From an uncultured Clostridia bacterium (GTDB taxonomy: Bacteria > Bacillota > Clostridia > Christensenellales > Aristaeellaceae), in the NCBI GenBank assembly GCA_944362695.1, contig CALVTQ010000106.1, positions 1-36,846 of the forward strand: 36,846 nt of DNA. The letters run 5' to 3'. The first letter of the stretch is position 1; each line of letters starts with the position of its first letter. This document shows positions 6,742-35,174 of this stretch, in pieces. The notes beneath the pieces are model-generated. The model worked only from the letters and a program-made list of their open reading frames with translations. It made no database searches and was not told the DNA's origin. Made by a program: the position numbers and the translations under genes.

Positions 6742-6753
6742 AATCCCTCCGCG

Positions 6754-7383: not shown

Positions 7384-7476
7384 AACAATTTCTCCTTTTA
7401 TCATCGCATTTTCTCGCGCCGCAAAGCGCATTTTGATTCATTGCAAAATTCCGTTCAGGACGCATACGCCGCCCCG

Positions 7477-8502
7477 TCACTCGACGAAGATCGCCTTCTC
7501 CTTCTTATCCAGCACCTCGCCGACGCACGCCGCAGGCAGCCCGGCTTCGCGCATCGCCGTGACGATCTCGCCCGCCGTCTCTTTCGGCACGCTCACGAGC
7601 AATCCGCCCGACGTCTGCGGGTCGAACAGCAGCTCCTCCATCGTGAAATCGTCAATGTCAAAGCGCACCGCGTCGCCGAGGTGATTCCTGTTCTTCTGCG
7701 CGGCGGCGGTCAGGTAGAATTCGCCCGCAAACTCGAGCGCACGCGCCATCCTCGGCACGTTCGCGCTGTCGATGCGCGCGGACAGCCTGCCGTCGAGCAT
7801 CTCCGAAAGATGCACGAGAAAGCCAAAGCCCGTCACGTCGCTGCACGCGTGTACGTCGTACCCCGCGAGCACCTCCGCCGCGCGCCGGTTGAGCGTGCGC
7901 ATGGAGTCCGTCGCCTCGCGCATGTCGGCCTCGGTCGCCGCCTTCACGCGGTTGGCCGCACAGACGAGGCCCACGCCGAGCTTCTTGGTCAGAATCAGCG
8001 CGTCGCCCGCATGGCAGCCGTTGTTGCGCAGGATCTTCTGCGGATCGACGATGCCCGTCGCGCTCAGGCCGTACTTGACCGTGTCGTCCACGATCGAATG
8101 GCCGCCCGCGAGCACCGCGCCCGCCTCCATGACCTTCTCATTGCCGCCCTGCAAGATCTTGCCCAGGACGTTCAGGTCGAGCGTCTCCGGGAAGCAGACA
8201 ATATTCAGCGCCGTCAGCGGCCGCGCGCCCATCGCGTAGATGTCGGAAAGCGCGTTCGCCGCCGCGATCTGGCCGAACAGATACGGGTCCTCGACCATCG
8301 GCGGAAAGAAATCGAGCGTCGAAACGAGCGCCTGATGCTCATTGATTTTGTAGACAGCGGCGTCGTCGTGGCTGTCAAAGCCCACCAGCAGATTCTCGTC
8401 CGGCCTCTTTTCGAGCTTCTCGAGTACGCGGGTCAGCGCGCCCGCGCCGAGCTTGGCCGTGCAGCCGCCGCTCGTGCAGAACAGAATGTCTTTTCTTTCC
8501 AT
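7477..8502 (-). CDS. selD: Selenide, water dikinase SelD (cysteine form)
   Basis: A 341-residue selenophosphate synthetase that converts selenide and ATP to monoselenophosphate. The active-site segment SGGCTAKLG provides Cys14 and Lys17, so this is a Cys rather than a selenocysteine enzyme. FDSHDDAAVY, GGHSIVDDTVKYGLSATG and SDVTGFGFLVHL are the metal/ATP-binding motifs of the AIR synthase fold. The ATG at 8502 follows an AGGAC-type site. No selA, selB or tRNA-Sec is present in the window and no in-frame UGA is needed. With yqeB, yqeC and xdhC alongside, its product most likely feeds the selenium cofactor of a molybdenum hydroxylase. Confidence 0.95.
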   Translation of the reverse strand: MERKDILFCTSGGCTAKLGAGALTRVLEKLEKRPDENLLVGFDSHDDAAVYKINEHQALVSTLDFFPPMVEDPYLFGQIAAANALSDIYAMGARPLTALNIVCFPETLDLNVLGKILQGGNEKVMEAGAVLAGGHSIVDDTVKYGLSATGIVDPQKILRNNGCHAGDALILTKKLGVGLVCAANRVKAATEADMREATDSMRTLNRRAAEVLAGYDVHACSDVTGFGFLVHLSEMLDGRLSARIDSANVPRMARALEFAGEFYLTAAAQKNRNHLGDAVRFDIDDFTMEELLFDPQTSGGLLVSVPKETAGEIVTAMREAGLPAACVGEVLDKKEKAIFVE

Positions 8503-8516
8503 TGATATACGTCCTT

Positions 8517-8744
8517 TCACAGCATCACGCGCGTGATGAGCTGATGCCTGATGTGCTTGCTCTGCATCAATTCGACCAGCGCCGCCTCGTCGCCCGGCTG
8601 CGCCGCCCACGCCATGCCGCATCCCGCGTCGATCGCCTTGGGCAGCGGGATGAGCCGCCCCGGCGCGCCGCTTTGCTTGCACGTGCGCTCCATCATCAGC
8701 GCCATCGTCGTCGTGGCGAACGTCACGATCAGGTATTCGCGCAT
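8517..8744 (-). CDS. DUF3343 putative Se/S carrier-like protein
   Basis: A 75-residue protein with MREYLIVTFATTTMAL, GRLIPLPKAI and the hallmark AGCGMAW (Cys43). It matches the small DUF3343 family, named in Pfam as a putative Se/S carrier-like protein, which is often adjacent to selD or yedF. It is the first gene of the selenium operon, 14 bases from selD. The ATG at 8744 is preceded by GGAGGG, and a longer upstream frame lacks one. Carriage of selenium to SelD is a guess from context and the single conserved cysteine. Confidence 0.82.
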   Translation of the reverse strand: MREYLIVTFATTTMALMMERTCKQSGAPGRLIPLPKAIDAGCGMAWAAQPGDEAALVELMQSKHIRHQLITRVML

Positions 8745-8766
8745 GATATCCCTCCGTTTCCTCATC

Positions 8767-8795
8767 ATTATACAACACGTCAAGCCCATTGTCAC
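8767..8795 (-). promoter_or_regulatory. Promoter of the selenium operon
   Basis: Minus-strand GTGACA (8790-8795), 17 bases, TATAAT (8767-8772), 22 bases upstream of the DUF3343 start codon. It matches consensus at eleven of twelve positions and is the only strong promoter seen for the six genes. Confidence 0.8.
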
Positions 8796-8817
8796 GCAGC
8801 ATATGCACATTTACCAA

Positions 8818-21238: not shown

Positions 21239-23383
21239 TTAATAAAGAAGCAGATACAGCAGCGTCACGCACAGACCGAGACCAAACAGCACCAGGCCGA
21301 AGCTCATGGTGTGCGTCGTGCTGCGCATGATCTCGGACAGACCGTCAAGCAGGCCCGCGAGCGTGCCGGTGTAATGGTGCTCGACCGGCCTCTCGCGCCG
21401 GATCGTGTGGTTGAGCCCCTCGGACACGCTGTCCGCGATGCCGCCGACCGTCTGCGCGACCTTGCCGCCCACGCCGAGCCTGTGCACGGCATGGCGCACG
21501 CGCAGCACCGTGTCGTCGGCGATGACCGCGAGCATGTCCGTCATCTCGCTGACCATCTTCGCCAGCACGAGGCCCGCAAACGACGCGCCGCCGATCACGG
21601 GCTTATAGATGTACGTCTCCAGCGTCTTTTCGCTGCACACGTTGGCCGCCGCGCCGCCGATCTTCGTGATCAGGCCGATCACCGGGCGATACACGGCGTC
21701 CTCGAGGTCAAGCCCCGCCGGCCAGACATCAAGATACACGCGCTCGCCGCGCTCGTCCCTGCCCATGAGCATCGTGCGGATGATGAACAGATACACCAGC
21801 AGGCCGATGGCAAGCGAGATGCCCGCGCCCTTGAGGTTGGTGATCGAGAAGTAATGCACGGCGTGCTCGGGCGTCCCGGCGTGCAGGAAGCCGCCCGCGA
21901 AGTCTGCGATGGCGTCCATCGTCATGTTCGGCGTCAGGCCGAGCACCGGGATCAGCAGCGCCGTGAGCGTCAGCGCGAGCGCGGACAGCGGCTTCATGTA
22001 TTTCTTCTTCACGTCGTGGAACAGCTGCTCCGTCGGGTGCTTCTGCCAGAACAGGCAGATGTAGAGCTTGATCATGTACGCGCCGGTCAATCCGCCGCTG
22101 AACAGATACAGCCACTCGGCGATCTGATACGGCAGCGCGAAGCCGCCCGCCTCGCGGACGATTTCGATGTACTCGACGATGCCCTCGTGGATCAGCGTCT
22201 TGCTGACATACCCCGAGAAGCCCGGCACGCCCATCAGGCCCACTGCGCCCATCAGGAACGCGAAATGCAGCAGCGGCTTGTGCCTGCCGAAGCCGCGCAC
22301 GTCGTTGAGATTCAGCTTGTGCAGGTTCATATACACGACGCCCGCCGCCATGAACAGCACCAGCTTGAACAGCGAGTGGTTGACCATGTACAGCAGCGCG
22401 CCCCTCGCCGCCAGCGCGTTGTGATGCCCGAGCAGGCAGCTCACGGCGATGCCCGTGAGGATGAAGCCGATCTGCGACATCGACGAGCACGCCAGCGTGC
22501 GCTTGAGGTTCACGGAGAACACCGCGAGCACCGCGCCGCCCAGCATCGTCACCAGCGCCAGCGCGAGCAGCATCTTGCCCCACACCGCGCTGTCCCGGAA
22601 GATGTTCGCGCTCACGACGATCACGCCGAACACACCGGACTTGGTCAGGATGCCCGAGAGCAGCGCGCTCGCCGGGGCCGGGGCGACCGGGTGCGCCTTC
22701 GGCAGCCAGATGTGCAGCGGGAACATGCCCGCCTTCGCGCCGAAGCCCACGAGGATGCACAGCGCCGCCGCCCAGATCGCCGTCTTATTCGCGCACGCCT
22801 GCGCCGCGTCGTAAAGCGCCGCGATTTCAAGCGTGCCGATGGTCGTCCAGAGGATGAACAGGCCCACGAGCATCACCATGCCGCCGAGGATGGCGACGGC
22901 CAGATACGTCTGCGCGGCACGCAGCGCGCCGGGCGTCTCGTCGTGCGCGACCCACGTGTAGGACGTGAACGACATGATCTCAAAGAAGATGAACGTGGTG
23001 AACAGGTCGGCGGACAGGAACACGCCCAGCGTCGCGCCCAGCGTCATGAGGTTAAAGAAATAGTAGCGATTGCGGTTGTGGTAGTGATGCGAGAAGTAGT
23101 CCGGCGAGAGCATGCCCGTCGCCAGCCACATCACGCCCGCCACGCACGCATACAGCGCGCGGAAGCCGTCGAGCGTGAATGTCAGCGTCATGCCGCACAT
23201 CGGGAAGGCGAGGCTCAGCTCGCGCCCGGCCAGCACAGCCATGGCCGCCAGCCCCGTGCCCGCCGCCGTCAGCAGGCAGGCGAGCACCACGAACGCGTCG
23301 CGCGCGCCCTTGTGCCAGCGCCCGATGAGATAGGAGAGCACCGCCGCAGCCATCGGGAAAAAGACCAGAAAACCGATCAGCAT
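21239..23383 (-). CDS. NuoL/MrpA-like proton-conducting antiporter subunit (fourth, long form)
   Basis: A 714-residue membrane protein of the NuoL/MrpA/HyfB type with about 15 or more helices. The ion-path residues are present: Glu135 (FFEIMSFTSY), Lys217 (GFGAKAGMFPLHIWLPKAHP), Lys248, Lys340 (NHSLFKLVLF) and Lys395 (GYVSKTLI). After the antiporter core, a C-terminal extension of about 170 residues holds amphipathic helices and a final membrane helix, as in NuoL-like subunits with a lateral helix. It is the last of ten genes, with a GGAGG-type site before the ATG. In Mbh/Mbx or complex I operons such a subunit couples ion pumping to a redox partner, but none is encoded next to it. Confidence 0.9.
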   Translation of the reverse strand: MLIGFLVFFPMAAAVLSYLIGRWHKGARDAFVVLACLLTAAGTGLAAMAVLAGRELSLAFPMCGMTLTFTLDGFRALYACVAGVMWLATGMLSPDYFSHHYHNRNRYYFFNLMTLGATLGVFLSADLFTTFIFFEIMSFTSYTWVAHDETPGALRAAQTYLAVAILGGMVMLVGLFILWTTIGTLEIAALYDAAQACANKTAIWAAALCILVGFGAKAGMFPLHIWLPKAHPVAPAPASALLSGILTKSGVFGVIVVSANIFRDSAVWGKMLLALALVTMLGGAVLAVFSVNLKRTLACSSMSQIGFILTGIAVSCLLGHHNALAARGALLYMVNHSLFKLVLFMAAGVVYMNLHKLNLNDVRGFGRHKPLLHFAFLMGAVGLMGVPGFSGYVSKTLIHEGIVEYIEIVREAGGFALPYQIAEWLYLFSGGLTGAYMIKLYICLFWQKHPTEQLFHDVKKKYMKPLSALALTLTALLIPVLGLTPNMTMDAIADFAGGFLHAGTPEHAVHYFSITNLKGAGISLAIGLLVYLFIIRTMLMGRDERGERVYLDVWPAGLDLEDAVYRPVIGLITKIGGAAANVCSEKTLETYIYKPVIGGASFAGLVLAKMVSEMTDMLAVIADDTVLRVRHAVHRLGVGGKVAQTVGGIADSVSEGLNHTIRRERPVEHHYTGTLAGLLDGLSEIMRSTTHTMSFGLVLFGLGLCVTLLYLLLY

Positions 23384-23398
23384 TTCGCTCCTCCTTCC

Positions 23399-24883
23399 TC
23401 ACATCACACCGGCGGAGGCCGCCGTCAGGACATCGACCACCGCGCCGGAGAACAGGCCGCAGAGCACAATCGCCGCGCAGAGCACCGCAAACGGCAGCTT
23501 CATGCGCCACGTCGGGTCGCAGTTCACATTCGCCTGCACATGGCCCGACGGCTCAAGCGGCCTGAAGAACATCGCAAACGCGACGCTCATCAGGTAAATC
23601 GCCGTCAGCACCGCCGAGATCAGCAGGGCCGCCATGCCGATCCACGCCGCCGGGACGCCCATGATGGACAGGCCTGCGTTGTCGATCAGCGACGTGCCGA
23701 TCATCCATTTGCTCACAAAGCCCGGCAAAAGCGGCGTGCCCGTCAGCGCCAGCGCGCCCACAACATACGCCGCGCACGTCACCGGCATCACGCGCCCGAT
23801 GCCGCGCAGACCCTCGACCTGCGTGCGGCCGGTCTTCACCAGCACAGCGCCCGCGCAGTAGAACAGCGTGATCTTGATGAGCGCGTGGAACACCATGTGC
23901 GCCATGCCCGCCGTCAGGCTCTCCTGCGTCATCAGGCTCGCCGCGAGCACGATATAGGACAGGTTCGAGACCGTCGAATACGCCAGCCTGCGCTTGAAGT
24001 GGTGCTCCTTGACCGCCATCGTCGAGCCGTAGACGATCGTGATGCTCGCCAGCAGAATCGCGACGAGCTGCGCCTTCGTGCCGTACAGAAGCGACGCGCC
24101 GAAGCTGAAGAACGTCACGCGGATGATACCGAACGCGCCCGCCTTGACGACCGCGACCGCATGCAGCAGCGCCGTCACCGGCGTGGGCGCGACGCTCGCC
24201 GAGGGCAGCCAGGCGTGCATCGGGAAGATCGCCGCCTTGACGCCGAAGCCCAGGAATGTGCAGATGTAGCCGGCTTGAAGCATCAGCGGGTGTTCTTTGG
24301 CAAAGCTCTCGCCCAGCGCGCCGCCGGGGACGAAGCCGCCGCCCTTGCCGTAGACCGTGACGATCATCACGCCCACGAACGCCAGCGCCGCGCCGAAGAA
24401 CGAATAGAGCATGTACTTATGGCCCGCCGCCACGCTCGCGCGGCTCGTGCCGTGCATGACCAGCGAGATCGTGGAGACCGTCAGCAGCTCGTAGAAGACA
24501 TACATCGTCATCAGATTCGCCGCGGACGCGATGCCCACGGTGACGCCGTATGTCATGGTATACAGCGCAAAAAAGTGATTCTCGCCGCCCTCGTGCTCCA
24601 TGTATTCAAACGCATAGAGCACGGCCAGCGGCCACAGGAACGCCACGAGGCCTGCAAACACCCGGCCCACGCCGTCCAGCTCAAAGGCCAGCGGCAGGCC
24701 CGGCATCAGGTACAGCAGCACCTCCCGCTCCCCGCCCGGGCGCAGCACGCAGGCAAGCACGATCAGGGACGTGATGAGCGTCGCGCCCATGACCAGCGCC
24801 TCGCGCACGCCGCGCCTCTTGGGCCGAAGCGCGAGGAGCAGTGCCCCCGCCGCGATCGGCAAGATAACCGCAAGGTTCAGCAT
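23399..24883 (-). CDS. MrpD/NuoM-like antiporter subunit (third)
   Basis: A 494-residue, about 14-helix protein of the proton-conducting transporter family. Conserved charged residues are Glu132 (MYVFYELLTVST), Lys216 (GFGVKAAIFPMHAWLPSAS) and a lysine in the helix-12 motif GFVSKWM. It starts at an ATG preceded by GGAGAGAG, 12 bases after the preceding gene. It is as complete as subunits that truly pump, so it is not a decayed copy. It differs strongly from its two neighbours, which suggests an old duplication rather than a recent one. Confidence 0.9.
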   Translation of the reverse strand: MLNLAVILPIAAGALLLALRPKRRGVREALVMGATLITSLIVLACVLRPGGEREVLLYLMPGLPLAFELDGVGRVFAGLVAFLWPLAVLYAFEYMEHEGGENHFFALYTMTYGVTVGIASAANLMTMYVFYELLTVSTISLVMHGTSRASVAAGHKYMLYSFFGAALAFVGVMIVTVYGKGGGFVPGGALGESFAKEHPLMLQAGYICTFLGFGVKAAIFPMHAWLPSASVAPTPVTALLHAVAVVKAGAFGIIRVTFFSFGASLLYGTKAQLVAILLASITIVYGSTMAVKEHHFKRRLAYSTVSNLSYIVLAASLMTQESLTAGMAHMVFHALIKITLFYCAGAVLVKTGRTQVEGLRGIGRVMPVTCAAYVVGALALTGTPLLPGFVSKWMIGTSLIDNAGLSIMGVPAAWIGMAALLISAVLTAIYLMSVAFAMFFRPLEPSGHVQANVNCDPTWRMKLPFAVLCAAIVLCGLFSGAVVDVLTAASAGVM

Positions 24884-24895
24884 GATCCTCTCTCC

Positions 24896-26365
24896 TTACA
24901 GAATGGTGGGCATCGCGGCCGTCACCGCGTCCATCAGCGGCCCGGCCATCACGCCCGTGAGCACGACCGCCGCCGCCAGCAGGATCACCGGCACGAGCAT
25001 GCGCCAGCCGCCCTCCTTCTTCTCGAGCTTGTCGTAATCGAAGTCGCTGCCCGGGAAGAAGCCGTTGATGGTCACCGGCAGCAGATACGCCGCCGTCAGC
25101 AGCGCGGAGACGATCAGCACGACCGGGCCGATGATGCCCAGCACGCCGAGGCCCGCCTCCAGCGAACCGGTCGCCAGCAGCCACTTGCTCACGAAGCCGC
25201 CCGTCGGCGGGATGCCGATCAGGCCCAGCGCCGCAATCGTCCAGCACCACGTCGTCACCGGCATCTCCTTGCCGATGCCGCGCAGGTCGCGGACATACGT
25301 CTTGCCGGTCTGGTGGATGTACGCGCCCGCGCATAGGAACAGGCCGTCCTTGATCGTGCTGTGCGCGATGACGTGCAGCAGCGCGCCCGCAAACGCCACG
25401 GGATGCAGGCAGCTAAGGCCGAAGAGCACGTAGCTCACCTGCGACACGGTCGAGTACGCGAGGCGCTTTTTGAGCAGCGGCTCGCCGTAGGCCATCATCG
25501 AGCCCATGAACACGGTGATCAGCGTCAGGATCATGAACGCCGTCTGCACCCACGTGCCGCGGATGGTGTCCGCGCCGACGAGGAAGTAGATCACGCGGAT
25601 GATCGCCAGCACGCCCGCCTTCGTGATCACGCCGGAGAGCACCGCCGACGCCGGGGCGGGCGCAACCGGGTGCGCCGTCGGCAGCCAGCCGTGCATCGGG
25701 AACATGCCCGCCTTCGTGCCAAAGCCGAGGATCACCATGAACGCGATGGCCAGCACGGGGCCAACCGGCGCGCCGCTCGCCGCCGCCGCGCCGCCGGGCG
25801 TGAACGTCACCGTGCCGAGGTAGTGGTTGAAGAAGAAGATGCCCAGCAGGCCCATCATCGCGCCGAAGATCGAGTAGATCAGATACTTGATGCCCGCGGC
25901 GACGGCCTGCGGCGTGCGCTCGTGCACGACCAGCGGCACGGAGAGCATCGTCATCAGCTCGTAGAACACGTACAGCGTGATCATCGAGCCGGCGCAGCAC
26001 TGGCCGATCAGCGCGGAGAGCACCGTCATGTAAAACGCCTGGAAGGAGCGCTCGTGCGCGTCGTGGCCGAGGTAGTCAAGCGCGAACACCGCCGCCAGCA
26101 GCCACATCGCGCTCATGAGCACGGCGAACATGCAGCCGATGGCGTCGATGCGCAGGAAGATGTGCAGCGTCGGGGTCAGCTCAAGCAGCGTCAGCTCGTA
26201 GCCGTTGCACAGGCACAGCGACACGCTCAGCAGGACCTCCACGATCAGCGCGCCGACCGTCAGCGCGGAGCGCAGTCTGCGGTCCTCCCTGGCGGCGGGC
26301 AGCAGCCAGATGCCCACGCCGCACAGCGCCGGCCAGAAAATCGCCAAGATCACAAACAGGTACAC
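24896..26365 (-). CDS. MrpD/NuoM-like antiporter subunit (second, GTG start)
   Basis: A 489-residue antiporter-like membrane protein. Glu136 (LYVFYELMTM), Lys218 (GFGTKAGMFPMHGWLPTAHP) and the helix-12 lysine of GGFVSKWLL are in place. The start codon is GTG at 26365, fixed by AAGGAGG 8 bases upstream. A 48-base gap, the largest inside the operon, separates it from the mnhD gene upstream. The GxKAGMFP..WLP.AHP block links it to NuoL/HyfB-type subunits more than to classical MrpD. Confidence 0.9.
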   Translation of the reverse strand: MYLFVILAIFWPALCGVGIWLLPAAREDRRLRSALTVGALIVEVLLSVSLCLCNGYELTLLELTPTLHIFLRIDAIGCMFAVLMSAMWLLAAVFALDYLGHDAHERSFQAFYMTVLSALIGQCCAGSMITLYVFYELMTMLSVPLVVHERTPQAVAAGIKYLIYSIFGAMMGLLGIFFFNHYLGTVTFTPGGAAAASGAPVGPVLAIAFMVILGFGTKAGMFPMHGWLPTAHPVAPAPASAVLSGVITKAGVLAIIRVIYFLVGADTIRGTWVQTAFMILTLITVFMGSMMAYGEPLLKKRLAYSTVSQVSYVLFGLSCLHPVAFAGALLHVIAHSTIKDGLFLCAGAYIHQTGKTYVRDLRGIGKEMPVTTWCWTIAALGLIGIPPTGGFVSKWLLATGSLEAGLGVLGIIGPVVLIVSALLTAAYLLPVTINGFFPGSDFDYDKLEKKEGGWRMLVPVILLAAAVVLTGVMAGPLMDAVTAAMPTIL

Positions 26366-26413
26366 CGTCTTTTCCTCCTTGTTCTCCCAAATGTCTCCAT
26401 ATGTCGAACAACG

Positions 26414-27919
26414 TCATGCGAAGTGGTGAAGGCCGGTGAACAGAGCATCGAGGATGTCCCCGCACCACAGGCCCAGAATCAGGTTCAGCGCGATAAAACC
26501 GATCAGGCTCAGCGCCGTCATGCCGCGCATCGGCACGCGCGATTGCACGACCCGCGCGCCGCTCTCGTCGCGAACCGGCGTGAACAGATGCAGCGTCGTG
26601 TTGAGGAAATACCACGCGTTGAGCAGCGTGGAGACCGCCAGACACGCCAGCGTGATGGCCGCGTGGCGTCCGCCGGTGTTGATGGCCGCTGTGGAGAGCA
26701 TGACCTTCGTGACGAACGCCGAGAGCATCGGCACGCCCACGAGGTTCGCCGAGCCGAGCGTGAACGCCGTCGCCGCCAGCGGGCTGCGCCAGAAGCCGCC
26801 GCGCAGGTCGCGCCGCAGATGCGTGTCGCCCGAGGCGACGTCCAGCTCCGCGCCGGAGATGAAGAGCATCGACTTGGTCGCCGCGTGCGCCAGCACATGC
26901 CACAGCGCGCAGACCATGCCGACCTCGTTGCCCATGCCCAGCGCCGTGAAGATGTAGCCGATCTGCGCCACGGAGGAATAGGCGACCATCATGCGCGTGG
27001 TCTTCGCGCGCACGGCGCACACGGAGCCCATCACCATGCCCGCCGCGCCGAAGACGAACAGCACGTCAAACACGCCGAGCTGCCTGACCACGTCATAGCC
27101 GATCACGCGCACATACACCTTGACCAGCAGCACGATGTAGCCCTTGGAGACGATCGAGGAGAGCAGCGCGCTCGCCGTCGGCGTGGCGTTTGAGTACGCC
27201 CCCGGCAGCCAGCTCGAGAACGGGAACAGCGCGCTCTTCATCGCAAGGCCCACGCTGATGAGCGCGAGCACCATCGTCAGCGGCACGTGATATTTGCCCG
27301 TCTGCGCGAGCACCGCGACGCTGTCCTGTATCGGCTCCATCAGAAGATGGCCGGTGATCGTGTAGAGGATGACCACGCCGATGAGGAACAGGCTCGAGCC
27401 CAGCAGGTTCATGATCATGTAGCGCACGCCCGCGACCACGCCGCGTCCGATCTGGCGCATGATGACCAGGCCCGCCGCCGCAAGCGTATTGATCTCGATG
27501 AACACGTACGCCGTGAACAGGTCGTTGGTGTAGACCAGCGCCAGCAGCGAGAGCATCGTCAGGTCCACCAGAATACAGAAGATGTTGTATTTCGTCTCCT
27601 CAATCTGGCGCACGCTCACGCGCATGCCGCCGGTGAAACTGAACAGGATGACGAAGCAGAGCACCATCATCGTGACCGTCTCCAGCACGCCGACGCGGAT
27701 CTCGTTGCCCCATGGCGCGGGGAAGTGGCCCATCAGATAGACGTAGCTCTCGCCCGTTTTGAGCGTGAACACCATCACGCACGCCGTCATCGCCGTGACC
27801 GCGCAGATGGCAAAGAACGTCAGATACCGCGCGGCGCGGGGCTTGAGGACGCTCGTGATGACCGCGCAGATCAGCGTCAGCAATATGCACGCGAAGGGGA
27901 AGTTCTGCACAAGCTGCAT
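26414..27919 (-). CDS. mnhD: MnhD/MrpD-like Na+/H+ antiporter subunit (first)
   Basis: A 501-residue membrane protein directly after mnhC, the position of MrpD and of MbhH in membrane-bound hydrogenase operons. Glu142 (AYVFIEINTLAAAG), Lys228 (GLAMKSALFPFSSWLPGAYSNA) and a helix-12 lysine (LSAFVTKVML) mark the ion path. The SNATPTASALLSS segment is typical of MrpD/MbhH. Its ATG touches the mnhC stop (TAAATG), with a GGGAGGAAG site. It is the most MrpD-like of the four antiporter subunits. Confidence 0.92.
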   Translation of the reverse strand: MQLVQNFPFACILLTLICAVITSVLKPRAARYLTFFAICAVTAMTACVMVFTLKTGESYVYLMGHFPAPWGNEIRVGVLETVTMMVLCFVILFSFTGGMRVSVRQIEETKYNIFCILVDLTMLSLLALVYTNDLFTAYVFIEINTLAAAGLVIMRQIGRGVVAGVRYMIMNLLGSSLFLIGVVILYTITGHLLMEPIQDSVAVLAQTGKYHVPLTMVLALISVGLAMKSALFPFSSWLPGAYSNATPTASALLSSIVSKGYIVLLVKVYVRVIGYDVVRQLGVFDVLFVFGAAGMVMGSVCAVRAKTTRMMVAYSSVAQIGYIFTALGMGNEVGMVCALWHVLAHAATKSMLFISGAELDVASGDTHLRRDLRGGFWRSPLAATAFTLGSANLVGVPMLSAFVTKVMLSTAAINTGGRHAAITLACLAVSTLLNAWYFLNTTLHLFTPVRDESGARVVQSRVPMRGMTALSLIGFIALNLILGLWCGDILDALFTGLHHFA

Positions 27920-28288
27920 TTACACTTCCTCCCTTCCCGCGATGGCGATGATCTCGTCGAGGTCGAGCGTGTGATAGCGGTAGTACAGCCGCACCGACAG
28001 CGCGAGCATCAGCGCCGATACGCTGACCGACACGACGATGCCCGTGAGCACGAGGCCCGCCGGGATCGGGTTGATGTATGCCTCCACGGACTGCACGCCG
28101 TCCACGACGATGGGCGCGGTGCGTCCCTCGATGTAGCCCTGGCAGGCGAGGAACAGATACACGGCGCTGTCCATGATGTCCATGCCGATGATCTTTTTGA
28201 TCAGATTCTTGTTGAGCATCATCGTGGTGAAGCCGATGCAGAAGAGGATCACCGCCGCCGTCTCATAATAATTGGTAAACAGCCGCAT
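27920..28288 (-). CDS. mnhC: MnhC/NuoK-like antiporter subunit C
   Basis: A 122-residue three-helix protein homologous to MrpC, MbhG and NuoK: GFTTMMLNKNLIKKIIGMDIM in the first part and PIPAGLVLTGIVVSVSVSAL in the third helix. It starts one base past the mnhB stop. NuoK-like subunits provide part of the ion path beside the antiporter subunits. Confidence 0.93.
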   Translation of the reverse strand: MRLFTNYYETAAVILFCIGFTTMMLNKNLIKKIIGMDIMDSAVYLFLACQGYIEGRTAPIVVDGVQSVEAYINPIPAGLVLTGIVVSVSVSALMLALSVRLYYRYHTLDLDEIIAIAGREEV

Positions 28289-28289
28289 A

Positions 28290-29273
28290 TCACACCTCTC
28301 CCTTCCGGAATACCGCGTAGAAGGCGTACATCGTGCAGGTCACGATGAAGCCCACGCAGATGTTGAGCACGAGGATCAGGCCGCTTGAGAGGATCGCGCC
28401 CGGCGTGCCAAGCGGGATGACGCTGTGGATGCCGTTCGCGCCGGTGTAGAACGAATAGCACTTGCTCACCGCGTAGGTCAGCAGCGCGCACAGCACGATC
28501 GTCTGATACGTCTTATAGCGGAAGAACCTGTGGATCGACTTGAAGCCGAACGCCGTCACGTAGAGCATCAGCGCCGCGCCCATGATCGCGCCGCCGGAGA
28601 AGCCGCCGCCCGGCGACAGGTGGCCGTTTAATACGACATATATGCCCAGCAGCAGCACCATCGGCACGAGGATGACCGCCGCCTTCTGCAAAATCACGTC
28701 GTTGTGCGGCTCGTAGTACGTGTCCGCGTGCGGCATCTCGCGCATCACGCGGGCCAGCGGACTGTACTGGTCGCTCTTTTCGTCCATGCGAAGCAGGAAC
28801 AGCACGACCATCGCCGCCGTGAACAGCACGCTCGACTCGCCCAGCGTGTCAAACGCGCGGTAGTCAAGGATCATGCCCGTCACGATGTTGACCGCGCCCG
28901 TCTCCTGCAGGCCCTTTTCGATGTAGCGCGCGGAGACCTCGTTGTTGATCGGGTGATTCGGGCTGCCAAAGCGCGGCAGGGTCGAAACCGTGAACAGCAA
29001 AAGGAAGATCATCGTCACGCACACGCACACGCACAGCGCGCAGTAGAGCCTGCGCATGAGCTTGCTGCCCCGGCGCTCCTTCCACGCGTGCACGCGCTCG
29101 GCGACGTCCTGCTCGACGGTGCGCTCCTGCGCCTCGCGGATGACGGTGGCCTCGTCCGGCTCGTCGCTCTCCTCGTCCGGCTCGCGCGTCTGCATGGCGA
29201 TCATGCGGCGCTCGAGCGCGCTGTCCTCCTCGGTGAGCCAGCGCTCAAGGCGCTCCTTCCATGCCTTAGCCAT
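28290..29273 (-). CDS. mnhB: Fusion of MrpA C-terminal (MbhE-like) region with MnhB
   Basis: A 327-residue protein. Residues 1-72 are hydrophilic and highly charged, which normal MnhB lacks. A membrane helix follows at about 73-96, then the MbhE/MrpA-tail segment NIVTGMILDYRAFDTLGESSVLFTA. The C-terminal 140 residues are a full MnhB domain with NGHLSPGGGFSGGAIMGAAL. The ATG at 29273 is chosen (GGAGG 8 bases upstream) over a GTG at 29282 that lies inside the ribosome binding site. It overlaps the DUF4040 gene by 8 bases. The MrpA tail is thus found here and in the DUF4040 gene, not on a MrpA protein, as in Mbh operons. Confidence 0.88.
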   Translation of the reverse strand: MAKAWKERLERWLTEEDSALERRMIAMQTREPDEESDEPDEATVIREAQERTVEQDVAERVHAWKERRGSKLMRRLYCALCVCVCVTMIFLLLFTVSTLPRFGSPNHPINNEVSARYIEKGLQETGAVNIVTGMILDYRAFDTLGESSVLFTAAMVVLFLLRMDEKSDQYSPLARVMREMPHADTYYEPHNDVILQKAAVILVPMVLLLGIYVVLNGHLSPGGGFSGGAIMGAALMLYVTAFGFKSIHRFFRYKTYQTIVLCALLTYAVSKCYSFYTGANGIHSVIPLGTPGAILSSGLILVLNICVGFIVTCTMYAFYAVFRKGEV

Positions 29274-29562
29274 TGCGCTCACCTCCGCGCTTCTGCTCGC
29301 CGTGCTCGCTGCGCACCTCGTTGCGCGCCTGAATGGCGTGAATCTTCTTGAGCGTCAGGAAGAACAGCAGGCTCGTGATGCCCGCGCCGACGGCCGCCTC
29401 GGTGATGGCCAGATCGGGCGACTCGAGCACGACCCAGATGATCGACATGACCAGCGAATACGACATGTAGATGATGACGCTCGTCAGCAAATCGCGCGTC
29501 AGGCACACGGCGATGGCGCATATGATCAAAAAAGCGAGCATCAGCTGCACGACCAGCGTCAC
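29266..29562 (-). CDS. DUF4040/MbhD-like antiporter subunit (GTG start)
   Basis: A 98-residue protein with three helices and the hallmark SPDLAITEAAVGAGITSLLFFLTL, the DUF4040 domain found in the C-terminal part of MrpA and as the separate MbhD subunit. The GTG at 29560-29562 overlaps the mnhG stop as GTGA. Its charged tail (KIHAIQARNEVRSEHGEQKR) extends into the cytoplasm. Having it as a separate gene is a mark of the Mbh-type rather than the Bacillus-type Mrp layout. Confidence 0.9.
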   Translation of the reverse strand: MTLVVQLMLAFLIICAIAVCLTRDLLTSVIIYMSYSLVMSIIWVVLESPDLAITEAAVGAGITSLLFFLTLKKIHAIQARNEVRSEHGEQKRGGERNG

Positions 29563-30077
29563 GGCGCATCCACCTCCCCGTCCTGCGCGGCGGCTTCCTC
29601 TGCTTCGTCCGCGCTGTTTTCGTCCAATATTTCTGTATCATTCATATTTGCATCAAACCCGGCCTGTTCGCCCGCATCATGCTGCGCATCGGGCTCATCC
29701 TGCGCCGCTTCCAGCTCGCTTTCGGCCTGCGCCGCGGCGATGGCGGCTTCCTCGTCGAGGTCGCGCACGGTCATGTAATCCTCGCGCTGCTCGTTCGTCT
29801 CGATCTCAAGGCGGCACAGCAGGTGACTGGACACCGGGCCGCTGATGAAATAGAACACCACGACCAGCAGGAGCTTGACCGCCGTGAAGCCGTCCGGCGC
29901 GCTGATGGCCCAGCCGATCAGGCACAGCGCGATGCCCAGCGTGTCGTTGAGCGCCGAGGCGTGCATGCGGTTGGCGACGTACTTAAACCGGTAGACGCCC
30001 AGCCCGCCGATGCAGCAGACGACGATGCCCGAGAGCACGAACGCCGCCGTCAGCATGAATCGAATCCACGCAATCAC
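29559..30077 (-). CDS. mnhG: MnhG antiporter subunit with acidic tail (GTG start)
   Basis: A 172-residue protein. The first about 95 residues are a standard three-helix MnhG (GGLGVYRFKYVANRMHASALNDTLG). The last about 75 are a highly acidic, Ala/Glu/Asp-rich tail that ordinary MnhG proteins of about 110-120 residues do not have. The GTG start overlaps the mnhF stop as GTGA. The tail is probably cytoplasmic, like the tails on MnhE and MnhB in this operon. Confidence 0.9.
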   Translation of the reverse strand: MIAWIRFMLTAAFVLSGIVVCCIGGLGVYRFKYVANRMHASALNDTLGIALCLIGWAISAPDGFTAVKLLLVVVFYFISGPVSSHLLCRLEIETNEQREDYMTVRDLDEEAAIAAAQAESELEAAQDEPDAQHDAGEQAGFDANMNDTEILDENSADEAEEAAAQDGEVDAP

Positions 30078-30418
30078 TGCTCAGCCGCCTCCTTCTCCTG
30101 CTGCTCGCGCATGCGCCGCATTTCCTCCTGCTCATGCCTGCGCTCGCGGTAGATGCCCATGTAGACCTTCGAAAGCAGCACCACCGCCAGGAAGCTGACC
30201 ATCGCATACAGCAGCGCGATGTCCGCCAGATATCCCTCGCCCAGCAGCACGACGCACGCGCTGACCATGATGATGGTGAGCGTGCCGGTCATGTTGACGG
30301 CGAGCACGCGGTCGCTGATGCGCGGCCCCTTGATGCAGCGGATCAGGCACAGGATCGCCAGCACCATCAGCGCGCCGATCGAGACCGCCGCCAGCATGTG
30401 ATATGCCTTGTCAATCAT
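30074..30418 (-). CDS. mnhF: MnhF antiporter subunit
   Basis: A 114-residue, three-helix protein. IRCIKGPRISDRVLAVNMTGTLTI is the MnhF/MrpF signature. A charged tail of about 25 residues (RERRHEQEEM..) ends it. The ATG at 30418 is used because AAGGAGG is 9 bases upstream; an ATG at 30427 sits directly on the site. It overlaps mnhE by 8 bases. Confidence 0.9.
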   Translation of the reverse strand: MIDKAYHMLAAVSIGALMVLAILCLIRCIKGPRISDRVLAVNMTGTLTIIMVSACVVLLGEGYLADIALLYAMVSFLAVVLLSKVYMGIYRERRHEQEEMRRMREQQEKEAAEQ

Positions 30419-31325
30419 GCCGCTCATCCTCCTTCTGCTCGCCGCCGGGCGCGATATCCTGCCCCGCAGTCTCGTTTTCTTCGGGCACAGCCTCGTTTTC
30501 TTCGTTCTCATCGTCAGGGGAAACGCCCTGCGCATCCGGCACGCCCACGGCGTACTCCGCCGCCTCGTAATCGCCGTCGTCCTGCGGGATATCCTCCATC
30601 AGGGCATCCTCGCCGGTCTGCTCCTGCGTAGCGTCCTCCTGCGGGGCGTCCTCTGCGGGCTGCTCCGGCTCGTCTGCGGCGCGGCGGTTCTTGCGGCCCG
30701 CCTTGGCGGCTTCCTTCTCGGCCTTGGCCGCGGCCTTCGCCGCCTCGCGCTCGGCCTTGGCGTTCTCCTTTTCGGCCTTCGCGGCGGCTTTGGCGGCTTC
30801 GCGCCCGGCCCTGGCCGCTTCCTTGTCCGCGGCCTTCTGCGCCTTGGCGGCCTGCTTGTCGGCGTCGGCGTATTCCATCGAGGCGAGCGCGTCCACAAAG
30901 CTGCTGCGCTCGATGCCGTCGGCCAGCGATTTGTCCAGGCAATGCACGAGATACCGCCCGTCCTCCAGCTCGCATGTGATCGTGCCGGGCGTCAGCGTGA
31001 TCGAGTCGGCCAGCACGACGCGGTGGTTCTCGCTCTTCAAATCGGTCGAGAAGCGCACGAGCTGCGGCTCGACCTCCCCGCTCTTGTGCAGGATCAGGTC
31101 GATCACGGCGAAGTTCGCCTTGAGGATCTCCGCGATCAGCAGCGCGCCATAGCGCACGCCGCGCCAGAGCGACAGCAGCAGCCCGATATCGGTCTTCACG
31201 CTGTACCCCATGAACTTGCACGAGAACGCGTAGAGCACCGCGGCGAAGATCAGGCCGAAGACGCCGATTTCCGTCGTCCATTTGCCGTTGAAGATCACCC
31301 ACAGCGCAAAGTACACAATGAACAT
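30411..31325 (-). CDS. mnhE: MnhE antiporter subunit with long charged C-terminal extension
   Basis: A 304-residue protein. Residues 1-150 are a normal MnhE domain: two N-terminal helices (FALWVIFNGKWTTEI..), then LKANFAVIDLIL, TPGTITCEL and YLVHCLD. Residues about 155-213 are an Ala/Lys/Glu repeat strongly predicted to be a single charged helix or coiled coil, and 214-304 are acidic and disordered-looking. Normal MnhE has about 160 residues, so half of this protein is extra. The ATG at 31325 follows AAGGAGGG. First gene of the ten-gene operon. Confidence 0.9.
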   Translation of the reverse strand: MFIVYFALWVIFNGKWTTEIGVFGLIFAAVLYAFSCKFMGYSVKTDIGLLLSLWRGVRYGALLIAEILKANFAVIDLILHKSGEVEPQLVRFSTDLKSENHRVVLADSITLTPGTITCELEDGRYLVHCLDKSLADGIERSSFVDALASMEYADADKQAAKAQKAADKEAARAGREAAKAAAKAEKENAKAEREAAKAAAKAEKEAAKAGRKNRRAADEPEQPAEDAPQEDATQEQTGEDALMEDIPQDDGDYEAAEYAVGVPDAQGVSPDDENEENEAVPEENETAGQDIAPGGEQKEDERHD

Positions 31326-31620: not shown

Positions 31621-32238
31621 TCACGCGCGCTCGGCGATGAGGCGTTCGAGCTTGTGCTTGACGCGCTGCAATGCGTTGTCGATGCTCTTGACCTGACGCC
31701 CCAGCATCTCGGCGATCTCCTGATAGCTCTTGCCGTCCAGATACGCCGCCAGCACCCGCCGCTCCAGCGGCGAGAGCATCTCGTCGATCTGGCTCTCGAT
31801 GCTCACATAGCTCTCCCGCCCGATGATCAGCTCCTCCGGGTCCATGCCCCGGCCCTCCGTGATCACGTCCATGAGCGTTCTGTCGCTCTCCTCCTCGTAG
31901 ATCGGCTTGTTGAGCGAGACGTAGGAGTTGAGCGGGATGTGCTTTTGCCGCGTGGCGGTCTTGATGGCCGTGATGATCTGGCGCGTGACGCACAGCTCCG
32001 CGAAGGCATGGAAGGACGAGAGCTTGTCCGGCCTGTAATCGCGGAACGCCTTGAACAGGCCGATCATGCCCTCCTGCACGATGTCCTCGTGGTCCGCGCC
32101 CACCAGAAAATACGAGCGGGCCTTGGAGCGCACGAAGTTTTTGTATTTGTTGAGCAAGTGCTCCGACGCCTCGACGTCCCCCTGCTGCGCGAGCAGGGCG
32201 ACCGCCTCGTCGGTCATGCTTTCATAGTCGTGGTGCAT
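31621..32238 (-). CDS. sigH: RNA polymerase sigma factor SigH (Spo0H)
   Basis: A 205-residue sigma-70 family protein of the length of SigH. Region 2 contains DHEDIVQEGMIGLFKAFRDYRPDK, and region 4 has LSPLERRVLAAYLDGKSYQEIAEMLGR with helix-turn-helix QVKSIDNALQRVK. SigH directs early stationary-phase and sporulation genes in Bacilli and Clostridia. Its place after rlmB and yacP is the conserved order in Firmicutes. AAGGAGG precedes the ATG. Confidence 0.93.
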   Translation of the reverse strand: MHHDYESMTDEAVALLAQQGDVEASEHLLNKYKNFVRSKARSYFLVGADHEDIVQEGMIGLFKAFRDYRPDKLSSFHAFAELCVTRQIITAIKTATRQKHIPLNSYVSLNKPIYEEESDRTLMDVITEGRGMDPEELIIGRESYVSIESQIDEMLSPLERRVLAAYLDGKSYQEIAEMLGRQVKSIDNALQRVKHKLERLIAERA

Positions 32239-32268
32239 GCTTCCTCCTTGCCGTGGATTCGCGATTGA

Positions 32269-32778
32269 TTATTCTTCGCCCTTGCGCATTTTGTCGAATA
32301 TTTCGCGCTGATGCGGCGGCAGGCGCGAGAAGATGTCCCCGCGCGAGACCTTCGGTTCGTTCATGTGCCGCCTGCCCACGGCGCGAACCTGCGTCAGCTC
32401 CATCAAAAACTCGCGCGAGCTGATGCGCACGGCCCCGCGCCCCATCGTGACGGTCTGCTCCACGGCGTCGCTCGTCGCCACGCGCACGGCCCGCCATTTC
32501 GGCACGGACGAGACCGTCGCCTCGATGAAGTTGTCCGCGCTCTCGGCGTGCTTGGTGAAGACGACCTCCACGCCGTGCCATGTCTGGCGCGAGCGCGTCG
32601 GGCGGTCGGTGTAGTGGCCGTCGAAGACCACGATGACCTCCTCGCCGGAGTAGCCCGCGTAATCCGCGACCAGATGAACAAGCCGCTCGCGCGCTTCCTC
32701 GATGGAAAGGTGCTCCGCGCGCGGCACGTCCCATGCGCCGATCACGTTGTAGCCGTCCACGAGCAGCAGCGGTTTCAT
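32269..32778 (-). CDS. yacP: YacP/Rae1-like NYN-domain ribonuclease
   Basis: A 169-residue NYN/PIN-like protein. LLLVDGYNVIGAW gives the first catalytic Asp, VVFDGHYT the second, and FTKHAESADNFIE and VRVATSDAVEQ supply further acidic residues. The B. subtilis homologue Rae1 cuts mRNA in the ribosomal A site. The start overlaps the rlmB stop as ATGA, indicating coupling; sigH follows 30 bases on. Confidence 0.9.
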   Translation of the reverse strand: MKPLLLVDGYNVIGAWDVPRAEHLSIEEARERLVHLVADYAGYSGEEVIVVFDGHYTDRPTRSRQTWHGVEVVFTKHAESADNFIEATVSSVPKWRAVRVATSDAVEQTVTMGRGAVRISSREFLMELTQVRAVGRRHMNEPKVSRGDIFSRLPPHQREIFDKMRKGEE

Positions 32779-33911
32779 GCGCGCGCCCCCATCATCGCGT
32801 AGAGCAGGATGCCCGCCGCGACCGACGCGTTCAGCGAGTCGATATGCCCCTTCATCGGCAGGCTCACCAGCTTGTCGCAGCTCTCGGCGACAAGGCGCGA
32901 TATGCCCTCGCCTTCCGAGCCGATGACGATGGCCGCCGGGCCGGAGAAATCGACCTTGCGGTAGTCCTCGCCGTTCATCGCCGCGCCGTAGACCCAGATG
33001 TTCTCCTTCTTCAGGCGCTCGATCAGGCGCGTGAGGTTCGTCTCCTTCGCCACGGGCAGGTACTCCACCGCGCCCGCGCTCGCCTTCACGGCGCTGGGGG
33101 TCAGGCCCACAGCCCTGCGCTCCGGGATGATGACGCCGTGCGCACCGGCACATTCCGCGCTGCGGATGATCGCGCCGAGGTTGTGCGGGTCGGTCACGCC
33201 ATCGAGGATCACCAGCAGCGGGTCCTCGCCGTGCTCTTTGGCCAGGGCGAGCATGTCGTCCACCGTCTTATAGGCATAGGCCGAGGCGACCGCGATCAGG
33301 CCCTGATGATTCGGGGCCATCGCGTCAAGGCGCGCGCGGTCGACCTCCTGCACGACGATCTTCGCCTCGTGCGCCATCGCGACGATCTCGCGGGCAGAGC
33401 CGATCAGCTCGCCGCGCGCCACGAGCAGCTTCTCGATGTCGCGGCCCGCGCGCAGCGCCTCGCGGATCGGGTTGCGGCCGACGAGCAGGTTGTCCGGCTC
33501 CTCGTGCTCCGGCGCAAAGGCCGGGCGCTCCGGTCTCGGCGGACGGCGGTCATCCCTGCGCTCGTCGCGCTCCTCGCGCTTCTGCGGGCGCGGGCCGCCG
33601 AAGGCCGGGCGGTCGCCGTAGGGCTTGCGCTCGTGCGGGTCGCCCACATAACGGCGCTCTTCCTTATTATTATAGGGCTTGCGCGGGCCATCGGCGTAGC
33701 GGCGCTCGCCGGGTTTGCCGTCCTTGTCATACGGCTTGCGCTCGTGCGGGTCGCCCGCGTATTGCCTGCGCTCGCCGTAGGGCTTCTTGTCATAGGGCTT
33801 CCTGCCGCCGCGTTCGCCGTCGCGCGCGGGACGCCAGGTCTCCTCGTCGTCGCGCCAGTCGTCGCGCTTGCCGCCCTGCGGCTTCTTGGTGAATTGATCG
33901 TAATATGCCAT
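32775..33911 (-). CDS. rlmB: 23S rRNA (guanosine-2'-O-) methyltransferase RlmB with charged repeat extension
   Basis: A 378-residue protein. From about residue 140 it is a standard SpoU/TrmH methyltransferase: NPIREALRAG substrate-binding start, DPHNLGAIIRSAECAG (motif 1), IVIGSEGEGIS (motif 2) and IDSLNASVAAGILLY (motif 3) of the trefoil-knot SAM site. The first about 135 residues are Arg/Lys/Asp/Tyr/Pro-rich, with repeated DPHERKPY and GERRYADG-like units. Ordinary RlmB has about 250 residues. Such a basic tail could bind rRNA. It starts with GGAGAA before ATG 33911. Confidence 0.92.
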   Translation of the reverse strand: MAYYDQFTKKPQGGKRDDWRDDEETWRPARDGERGGRKPYDKKPYGERRQYAGDPHERKPYDKDGKPGERRYADGPRKPYNNKEERRYVGDPHERKPYGDRPAFGGPRPQKREERDERRDDRRPPRPERPAFAPEHEEPDNLLVGRNPIREALRAGRDIEKLLVARGELIGSAREIVAMAHEAKIVVQEVDRARLDAMAPNHQGLIAVASAYAYKTVDDMLALAKEHGEDPLLVILDGVTDPHNLGAIIRSAECAGAHGVIIPERRAVGLTPSAVKASAGAVEYLPVAKETNLTRLIERLKKENIWVYGAAMNGEDYRKVDFSGPAAIVIGSEGEGISRLVAESCDKLVSLPMKGHIDSLNASVAAGILLYAMMGARA

Positions 33912-33923
33912 GGTGATTCTCCT

Positions 33924-34655
33924 TTATTTCAAATCCATTTCGGCGGCGCGGGCCTTCATCTCGGCCGCCCTGCCGCATGTGTTCTTGCCCTCGGGGCATG
34001 CGCCGCGCAGGCATGCCGGGCCTGCGTTGGCGAACAGCGCCGGCGCGGCCTTCTTACATTCGGCGAGCATCTGCCACGCCATCTCGCGGATCTCCCACTG
34101 CGCGCGTCCGCAGCAGCGCAGCTCGAAGAAATGCATCAGCTCGCGCGCGTTCATCGTCATCACGAGGCGCGTCGCCGCCGCATTGGGCAGCACGAAGCGC
34201 GCGTCCTGATTGGCCGCCTCCTTCGCCCCGCCGAGCTTCTCCTGCCACTGACAGTACCACTTGTGCATGGTGTCCATCTGGCGGATGAACTCCGCCTCCT
34301 GCTCCTCGCCCAGCGCGCTGATCGACGGCGGGATGACGTAATCAAACCCGTCCGCCATCGAGACGTAGCGCTGGCTCTGCACCGAGAACGAAGCGATGCG
34401 GTGGCGCGTCAGCTGCGCCAGAAGCGCCCGGCTCACGCCCTCCACGGCGAATGTGAAGCTCGCGTGCTCCGTGACCGACAGATGCCCGCGCTGCATGACG
34501 CGCTCGACGTATGCCCGCTGGTCGCTGGCCTCCACGCGCTCGCGAAGCGCCTCGACGTCCGCCTGCGCATAGCACAGCCGCGCGCCCAGCGCCACGATCT
34601 CGTCCGGATCGGGCGTCGAGCGCAGCAGGATCACCTTCAGCGTTGCCTTTGCCAT
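33924..34655 (-). CDS. thyX: FAD-dependent thymidylate synthase ThyX
   Basis: A 243-residue flavin-dependent thymidylate synthase that makes dTMP from dUMP using methylene-tetrahydrofolate and NADPH. The ThyX signature RHRxxSxxxxSxR is seen as Arg84-His85-Arg86..Ser89..Ser94-x-Arg96. HLSVTEHASFTF and NARELMHFFELRCCGRAQWEIR supply the FAD and dUMP contacts. The C-terminus CPEGKNTCG is typical of clostridial members. GGAGG precedes the ATG at 34655, which lies inside the end of mrnC (19-base overlap). It is inserted into the mrnC-rlmB neighbourhood. Confidence 0.96.
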   Translation of the reverse strand: MAKATLKVILLRSTPDPDEIVALGARLCYAQADVEALRERVEASDQRAYVERVMQRGHLSVTEHASFTFAVEGVSRALLAQLTRHRIASFSVQSQRYVSMADGFDYVIPPSISALGEEQEAEFIRQMDTMHKWYCQWQEKLGGAKEAANQDARFVLPNAAATRLVMTMNARELMHFFELRCCGRAQWEIREMAWQMLAECKKAAPALFANAGPACLRGACPEGKNTCGRAAEMKARAAEMDLK

Positions 34656-35119
34656 GATCTATCCTCCGTGCGCGAAAGCGCCAAATTCACCAGTTCGTTG
34701 AGCCTGTGCGTCTGCCCGCTGATGTACAGCGCGCCCCACAGCGCCTCGAGGCCCGTCGCATGTGCATAGTCCGCGGGGTCGGCGTGCTTGGGCGCGGCGT
34801 GTTTGGCGTGCGCATTGCGGCCCCGGCGCACGATGTCTGCCTCGGCCTGCGTCAGCTCCGGCTCAATCGCCGCGAGCATCCTCGCCTGCGCGCCCGCGCT
34901 GACCATGCGGATGGCCCGCTTGTGCATCGCGCCGACGCTCATGCCGCGCACGACGAGCGCACTGCGCACGTACAAATCGTGCACCGTGTCGCCGATATAC
35001 GCCAATTGCAGCGCGTTCAGCTCGCGGATGTCCCGCCCGCCGACTGCCTCGTGCACGGCGTCCAGCTCCGCCTCGACCGCAGGCGCCGCGTGCTCAAATT
35101 CGTTCTTTTCCTCCGGCAA
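34637..35119 (-). CDS. mrnC: Mini-ribonuclease III (TTG start)
   Basis: A 160-residue RNase III-like protein without a dsRNA-binding domain. ALQLAYIGDTVHDLYVR holds the catalytic Asp, and ATGLEALWGALYISGQ the second acidic site. In B. subtilis, MrnC matures 23S rRNA. The TTG at 35119 is preferred because GGAGGG is 8 bases upstream; an ATG at 35161 has none. First gene of the mrnC-thyX-rlmB-yacP-sigH series; cysS, which usually precedes it, is absent. Confidence 0.9.
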   Translation of the reverse strand: MPEEKNEFEHAAPAVEAELDAVHEAVGGRDIRELNALQLAYIGDTVHDLYVRSALVVRGMSVGAMHKRAIRMVSAGAQARMLAAIEPELTQAEADIVRRGRNAHAKHAAPKHADPADYAHATGLEALWGALYISGQTHRLNELVNLALSRTEDRSWQRQR

Positions 35120-35174
35120 GGATGCTTCCCTCCAAATCCATAAAATGGCCTTCCTCGCCACAATAATTCAGTTT

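Follow-up and report, generated by a model that had tools for sequence, protein, structure and literature searches.

Why would an ion-exchange operon carry four antiporter subunits and no redox module? The question arises from the window, a 36,846-nucleotide stretch (contig CALVTQ010000106.1, assembly GCA_944362695.1) of an uncultured Clostridia bacterium of the family Aristaeellaceae. Ten contiguous genes on its minus strand (21239–31325) encode the Mrp-type proteins E, F, G, MbhD, B and C and four antiporter subunits, hereafter called D1 to D4. The earlier note on this DNA had read these genes as one operon, and the genes are indeed present, contiguous, co-directional and identifiable by Pfam; the end coordinate that it gave, 31325, is the ATG of E. 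We propose that the operon encodes a single stand-alone Group 3 Mrp-type Na+/H+ antiporter complex, in which the subunits would form a linear row with D4 at its distal end, and we give this reading a probability of about 0.62.

The reading frames were picked through Pfam matches and the G+C content at the codon positions. The first gene, the mrpE/mbhA-like E (30411..31325; 304 amino acids, aa), matches PF01899 (E = 1.7e-26) and ends in a long C-terminal tail rich in Ala, Lys and Glu (window 30411–30900); the E proteins of relatives have a median of 157 aa (range 152–212, 59 loci), as compared to 304 here. The mrpF-like F (30074..30418; 114 aa from the start MIDKAYH) matches PF04066 (E = 4.1e-9, in the longer frame 30074–30535), the mrpG-like G (29559..30077) matches PF03334 (E = 7.1e-21), and mbhD (29266..29562), with its DUF4040 domain, matches PF13244 (E = 6.1e-21). 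B (28290..29282; 330 aa) is a fusion of mbhE and mrpB, with PF20501 and MnhB (PF04039) in one reading frame, and the mrpC/nuoK-like C (27920..28288) matches PF00420 (E = 1.7e-19). The four antiporter subunits follow, all with PF00361: D1 (26414..27919; 501 aa; E = 4.7e-42), which adjoins C; the middle subunit D2 (24896..26365; 489 aa; E = 1.3e-57), a paralogue of D3; the extra middle subunit D3 (23399..24883; 494 aa; E = 7e-50); and the distal MrpA/NuoL-type subunit D4 (21239..23383; 714 aa; E = 1.9e-53). All four are complete, as had been claimed, and they are the only PF00361 proteins that a search of the whole assembly (2.93 Mb, 174 contigs, 83.3% complete) recovers. Since all of the NCBIfam families shown for the four D proteins (the best 25 of 71–76 each) score under the curated cut-off, D1–D4 are divergent from the named families.

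To which kind of Mrp system does the operon belong? In Group 1 Mrp (the Bacillus type), MrpA has about 800 aa, its NuoL-like part is fused to an MbhD/E-like tail, and the gene order is A-B-C-D-E-F-G. The Pfam layout of the window operon is not of this type: there is no fused MrpA, MbhD and MbhE lie in frames separate from D1–D4, and the order E-F-G-MbhD-(MbhE+MrpB)-C-D is the Mbh-like one that the earlier note had recognized. This layout agrees with the definition of Group 3 Mrp (CPA3), which has E, F, G, MbhD/E-type, B, C and D proteins in the order E-F-G-B-B′-C-D, no mrpA, and mrpD "sometimes with multiple copies" (as described in passages of PMC8415708). The features of membrane-bound hydrogenase (MBH), MBS or complex I are not found, as there is neither PF00146 in the own assembly nor a catalytic redox subunit among the adjoining genes searched with Pfam.

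All four D subunits retain the residues of the ion path. In columns aligned to E. coli NuoL/M/N, the Glu and two Lys residues of the helices that we take to be transmembrane helices (TM) 5, 7 and 12 are invariant: E142, K228 and K405 in D1 (57/57), E136, K218 and K394 in D2 (57/57), E132, K216 and K392 in D3 (55/55), and E135, K217 and K395 in D4 (52/52). The earlier observation of a conserved TM5 Glu and TM7 Lys in all four thus extends across the relatives, and to the TM12 Lys.

Is the set of four peculiar to this assembly? In a sample of 150 same-family genomes, its own included, PF13244 (MbhD) is found in 78, and above the cut-off in 76. We examined 60 of the 79 PF13244 places outside the own genome as operon loci, mostly the best-scoring, with some places on short contigs left out; four more places were consulted for other questions. 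The order E-F-G-MbhD-B-C-D1-D2-D3-D4, which the earlier note had proposed to search for in related genomes, is identical in 48 of these 60 loci. The contig ends before D4 in seven of them, and C-D1-D2-D3-D4 is present in all of the 53 others; one of these has a D4 gene broken into four fragments, another carries an additional, fifth antiporter gene, and in some (e.g., L044 and L077) the contig stops within D4. Three of the 53 (L035, L064 and L093) list two small genes in another order, which we take as a sorting effect of overlapping frames. Such a shared ten-gene order lies far beyond chance.

The number of subunits is equally constant. Exactly four PF00361 proteins occur in 67 of the 78 MbhD-bearing family genomes; in the other 11 (G002, G018, G034, G088, G104, G106, G107, G121, G137, G144 and G145), most of the deviations would be explained, judging from the places and loci examined (the first contig in the case of G002, G088 and G104), by truncation at a contig end, interrupted frames, the gain of a gene or a different kind of cluster. 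We also collected 80 named loci, those that best matched the alignment built for B of the window; they lean to close relatives, and their record titles include Lachnospiraceae, Clostridia, Hungatella hathewayi, Butyricicoccus pullicaecorum and Synergistales. The run of four D genes is present in 62 of the 66 uncut named loci, in one of which D4 is split in two; the remaining four loci are from Synergistales. All of the eight named genomes that we chose, four Synergistales among them, have exactly four PF00361 proteins.

How did the fourth subunit arise? Across the phylum, where 141 of 398 genomes matched, the 20 loci examined, all from among the higher-ranking matches, carry one to four D subunits after C, some of these loci being cut. 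One same-family operon (L056, 4085–12601) has five antiporter subunits, the last two both of the D4 type. Another arrangement is seen at L182 (1–13692), where a D4-type gene lies upstream of E and four D-type genes lie downstream of C, the last one cut by the end of the locus. In a FastTree tree of 127 chosen antiporter sequences (477 columns), D1 falls on the NuoN/MrpD/MbhH side, together with the D subunits that come first in other clusters, and its best sequence match among the solved structures is MBS subunit H (6u8y_H). D4 groups (support 1.0) with the last D subunits of Peptoclostridium, L180, L181, L185, L187, L195 and L197; the last D of L184, of L192 and of Natronorubrum falls elsewhere. 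D2 and D3 form sister clades with a joint local support of 0.994, and the D2+D3 clade excludes (0.94) the middle subunits of both Peptoclostridium and L181, as well as one middle subunit of L193. This sister relationship indicates that the middle subunit of a three-D form was duplicated to give the four-D form, and that it is the D2/D3 duplication that gave rise to the fourth subunit. At L193 (Bacillota genome G423, one contig), four D subunits are present and the middle pair lies outside both the D2 and the D3 clades, which suggests that this four-D cluster is of independent origin.

Do the four subunits act together? In the four Synergistales genomes, the operon ends after D2, and two other PF00361 genes stand singly elsewhere (L208–L215). 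These isolated genes score best as D3 and D4 and fall into the corresponding clades of the tree. One copy of each of the four is thereby kept even after the operon was split, and this retention is the strongest sign that D1–D4 may act together. The same single genes, standing apart from the operon, can also be read as independent D3 and D4 antiporters beside a two-D Mrp, much as the single MrpA/D-like protein Nt-Nha has been reported to be active alone (in passages of PMC5703873). We consider this highly improbable, because those Synergistales keep exactly one D3 and one D4 alongside D1-D2, because the operon would be left with no distal subunit of the MrpA/NuoL type if D4 did not belong to it, and because D4 is shortened in five of the six genomes, described below, that have lost the Mrp core. 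In all four Synergistales genomes, a gene of 289–299 aa, by eye aldo/keto reductase-like, lies upstream of D3.

The loss of the Mrp core provides a second view of the set. Ten family genomes have PF00361 and no MbhD. Four of these represent contig-cut operons or single contigs (G070, G105 and G109) or a 370-aa remnant (G116). The other six, hereafter called core-less (G029, G035, G072, G097, G133 and G149), belong to three genera, and four of the six are at least 95% complete. Five of them hold a D2-D4 pair and G133 holds D2-D3-D4 (loci L216, L217, L218, L219, L223 and L233, with the trio at L223). No core genes lie beside these sets, and nowhere in the six genomes is there a match to PF13244 or to A1, our MbhE/MrpB alignment of B from 31 family members. 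In the trees, the six sets sit among full-operon relatives: those of genera g30 and g35 adjoin members of the same or a neighbouring genus, and the g27 set is not with its genus mates and stands beside the three-D L180 in the D4 tree. This placement indicates that the core was lost in the six genomes, and that their D2-D4 sets would derive from the full operon.

The core-less sets bear on the alternative that D1–D4 are not all present at once, so that the D subunits take turns on a shared core, or D2 and D4 make up a two-subunit transporter of their own that merely shares the operon. Five genomes have indeed kept only D2-D4, and one D2-D3-D4, with no core beside them, and their D4 retains the TM5, TM7 and TM12 residues in 6/6. 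However, only 48–67 residues follow TM15 of D4 in five of the six (159 in G029), the TM5 Glu of D2 is lost in three of the six, and the D3 of the sole genome that has one has lost both residues, so that D2 or D3 lacks ion-path residues in four of the genomes and the sets look like altered remnants. Their position among full-operon relatives, for two of the three genera beside the same or a neighbouring genus, likewise argues against alternative use, as does the presence of all four D genes at one copy in the full operons. We therefore regard alternative use as unlikely, and prefer a single complex that holds all four subunits.

How would such a complex be organized? By homology to the solved Mrp, MBH and complex I arms, the cation-path module (E, F, G, B, MbhD and MbhE) would be followed by C, and C by the row D1-D2-D3-D4 in gene order, ending in D4 as the distal MrpA/NuoL-like subunit. 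The model of D4 (mean predicted local distance difference test score, pLDDT, 86.8) consists of an antiporter core, a further TM helix at residues 514–538, amphipathic helices at about 539–694 and a hydrophobic terminal helix at 695–713. The latter two, delimited from the model and the hydropathy, compose the lateral extension (window 21242..21769, minus strand). The best fold matches of D4 are MrpA structures (9a6h_A and 7qru_A), followed by NuoL and HycC, and its best sequence match among the solved structures is 6cfw_H. The extension would run back along the D1–D4 row. All of the proteins would make up one physical complex, in which Na+ would be exchanged against H+.

The length of the D4 tail is consistent with this arrangement. 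The median number of residues after the TM12 Lys is 313 in D4 (n = 102) vs 95 in both D2 and D3. In the clusters compared, the long tail is confined to the last D, and the other D subunits have about 90–130 residues after this Lys; with a long tail in D4 only, each operon would have one distal end. After TM15, the 102 full-operon D4 proteins have a median of about 166 residues, the lowest values being 79 (the contig-cut gene L077) and 108. As the extension is shortened in five of the six genomes that lost the core, the simplest reading is that it serves contacts with the part that is missing from the core-less genomes. These genomes are few and related to one another, and we do not rely on a Fisher test of the shortening (4/5 vs 0/102), which treats kin genomes as independent and predates the sixth genome. 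We also looked for a clean scaling of the D4 tail length with the number of D subunits and did not find it; the tails overlap between the three-D and four-D clusters.

Is a redox partner encoded elsewhere? The gene order is the same as that of the MBH and MBS membrane arms (passages of PMC8415708), and the operon might supply the membrane part of a redox complex, with a hydrogenase, dehydrogenase or Rnf module encoded at another locus. PF00146, the NuoH/MbhM-type linker, is not found in the own assembly (83.3% complete), and is absent from 147 of the 150 same-family genomes and from 75 of the 76 with MbhD above the cut-off. The three genomes that have it are G106 and G145, with a different antiporter cluster and only a weak MbhD, and G107, which also has the five-D operon. 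Among the window genes on both operon flanks searched with Pfam, there are no redox subunits, and the commonest flanking gene cluster occurs in only six of 160 loci (loci with no B match were skipped). We rejected a hydrogenase or complex I partner because PF00146 is missing from the own assembly and from nearly all of the family genomes and because no neighbour recurs; the lack of a redox module, which the earlier note had pointed out, is thereby supported.

Rnf deserves separate consideration. Two other Bacillota families have a three-D Mrp that is immediately preceded by a complete rnfCDGEAB operon and immediately followed by apbE (L197, 2044–16761, and L185, 1854–16516); all six rnf genes of L197 were identified by Pfam, and those of L185 by Pfam for rnfC and rnfB and by similarity for the remainder. 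In two of the 60 same-family loci, both from one genus (L043, 2157–5831, and L047, 15615–19197), the opposite strand upstream of the four-D operon carries apbE- and rnfG-like genes, with RnfC at a greater distance; in the same position, the named locus L169 (2630–8415) has an rnf cluster. However, RnfC is above the cut-off in 133 of the 150 family genomes, the own one included, and MbhD is present in 78, so that the distribution of Rnf does not track that of Mrp. We rejected Rnf as a general partner in cis, since it is nearly universal in the family with or without Mrp, and it is likely to be the maker of the gradient rather than a subunit. Taken with the PF00146 and neighbour results, this leaves a redox-arm function with only a very slight probability, and we return to the stand-alone exchanger.

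Which ions would it exchange, and in which direction? The c subunit of the own ATP synthase (L228, 1447–1725) contains GEGYA ... VAETTGLY. By eye, it matches the Glu32, Val63, Glu65, Thr67 and Tyr70 positions that are described, together with Ser66, for the Na+-driven rotor of Fusobacterium nucleatum (passages of PMC3692424), with Thr in place of Ser66. The ATP synthase is thus apparently of the Na+ type, and this two-carboxylate signature, together with Rnf, indicates that Na+ is probably the main coupling ion of the organism. For the stand-alone Group 3 Mrp of Pyrococcus furiosus, the proposed activity is export of H+ against uptake of Na+, and cells become sensitive to acidification when it is lost (abstract of PMC8415708). 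By analogy, we consider with moderate confidence that the window complex would most likely let Na+ in and move H+ out of the cell as fermentation acids build up. The reverse, Na+ expulsion coupled to H+ entry, is also conceivable.

Several observations weigh against the proposal of a single four-subunit exchanger. First, the case for one complex is comparative, and the own assembly is only 83% complete. Second, part of the row can exist alone, as D2-D4 or D2-D3-D4 persist with no core in six genomes, and the Synergistales show that the D genes need not be linked. Third, the extension is an imperfect marker of the row: its lateral helices and the last TM of D4 are modelled at low or mixed confidence beyond residue ~580, its length fails to separate three-D from four-D clusters (83–244 residues after TM15 in 11 three-D clusters), the Synergistales D4 proteins have only 110–117 residues after TM15, and G029 keeps a full-length D4 with no core. 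Finally, the direction of transport is taken from analogy.

How does the operon compare with the known systems? The P. furiosus stand-alone Mrp, reported as mrpEFGBB′CD, matches the window operon in gene order and in lacking both a redox module and a fused MrpA, and a Na+/H+ role is proposed for it (passages of PMC8415708); it has one D and no distal MrpA/NuoL-like subunit, whereas the window operon has four D subunits, the distal one with a lateral extension. Pyrococcus MBH (6cfw) and MBS (6u8y) share the order of the membrane arm, but have fewer antiporter subunits and carry hydrogenase or sulfur-reductase modules (same source). Irregular clusters with two mrpD genes are listed in PMC5703873, in the passages cited here. 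In Ca. Nitrospira alkalitolerans, mrpD of a Group 3 Mrp cluster is followed by two extra NuoM/NuoL-like genes, interpreted as probable additions of the mrpA/D type (passages of PMC7784846). This cluster, which adjoins bicA and nhaB, would have a total of three or four antiporter genes, depending on the mrpA call, and may be a described four-D stand-alone Mrp. As annotated, plasmid EAL2_808p of Peptoclostridium acidaminophilum and a plasmid of Natronorubrum daqingense carry E-F-G-MbhD/DUF4040-(MbhE)-B-C-D-D-D with no redox genes; these clusters have three D genes vs four here, and the Peptoclostridium middle subunit is the one outside the D2+D3 clade.

A different parallel is four-pump complex I, on which Chadwick 2018 is reportedly the key paper. 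Nitrospira 2M complex I, rhizobial green complex I and Manganitrophaceae complex I_3 have four or five antiporter-like subunits, and 2M complex I has an additional NuoM and a lateral-helix insertion (passages of PMC9040806); per complex, one to three and recently four such subunits are counted in passages of PMC7419157. The window operon shares with 2M complex I an extra middle subunit gained by duplication, which is a likeness and not a membership, as the complex I variants carry redox modules and the window operon has none. We tentatively suggest, at less than even odds, a redox-independent Mrp parallel to these variants, with four (once five) units in one row, in which the duplication in the middle raised the number of ions moved per cycle. 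The relatives with one to five units and the core-less genomes would then be a natural deletion series, in which the lateral extension is kept, with few exceptions, only where there are a row and a core to clamp.

What, then, is unusual? The earlier note had considered four subunits with no redox module to be so. Stand-alone Group 3 Mrps, such as that of P. furiosus, and extra mrpD genes are already in print, at least in the passages of PMC8415708, and the missing redox module is not itself new; the unusual part is the fixed set of four D subunits. The note had also allowed that the order might prove widespread and already characterised. It is widespread (identical in 48 of 60 same-family loci, with the run C-D1-D2-D3-D4 in all 53 not cut before D4), but the four-subunit form was not found characterised in the searchable literature: our searches of open-licence PMC papers yielded no plain description of a four-D stand-alone Mrp, of its split form or of the core-less remnants.

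Elsewhere in the window, genes of the sigma-70 family, YacP, SpoU-methylase, ThyX and a ribonuclease III-domain protein precede the operon on its own strand (31621–35161). XdhC/YqeC-like, TusA-like and AIRS-domain (SelD-like) genes stand together on the minus strand at 3420–8817, a group that presumably resembles a selenium-dependent molybdenum hydroxylase maturation cluster.

According to passages of PMC7419157, it is not yet settled whether the antiporter-like subunits of complex I and related complexes each move an ion of their own all the way across the membrane. A four-unit antiporter that works with no electron transfer would allow the ion ratio to be measured directly and compared with that of relatives with one, two or three units. 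The operon would thus represent a large ion exchanger of the gut Clostridia and, at the same time, a natural test of the role of each extra channel.

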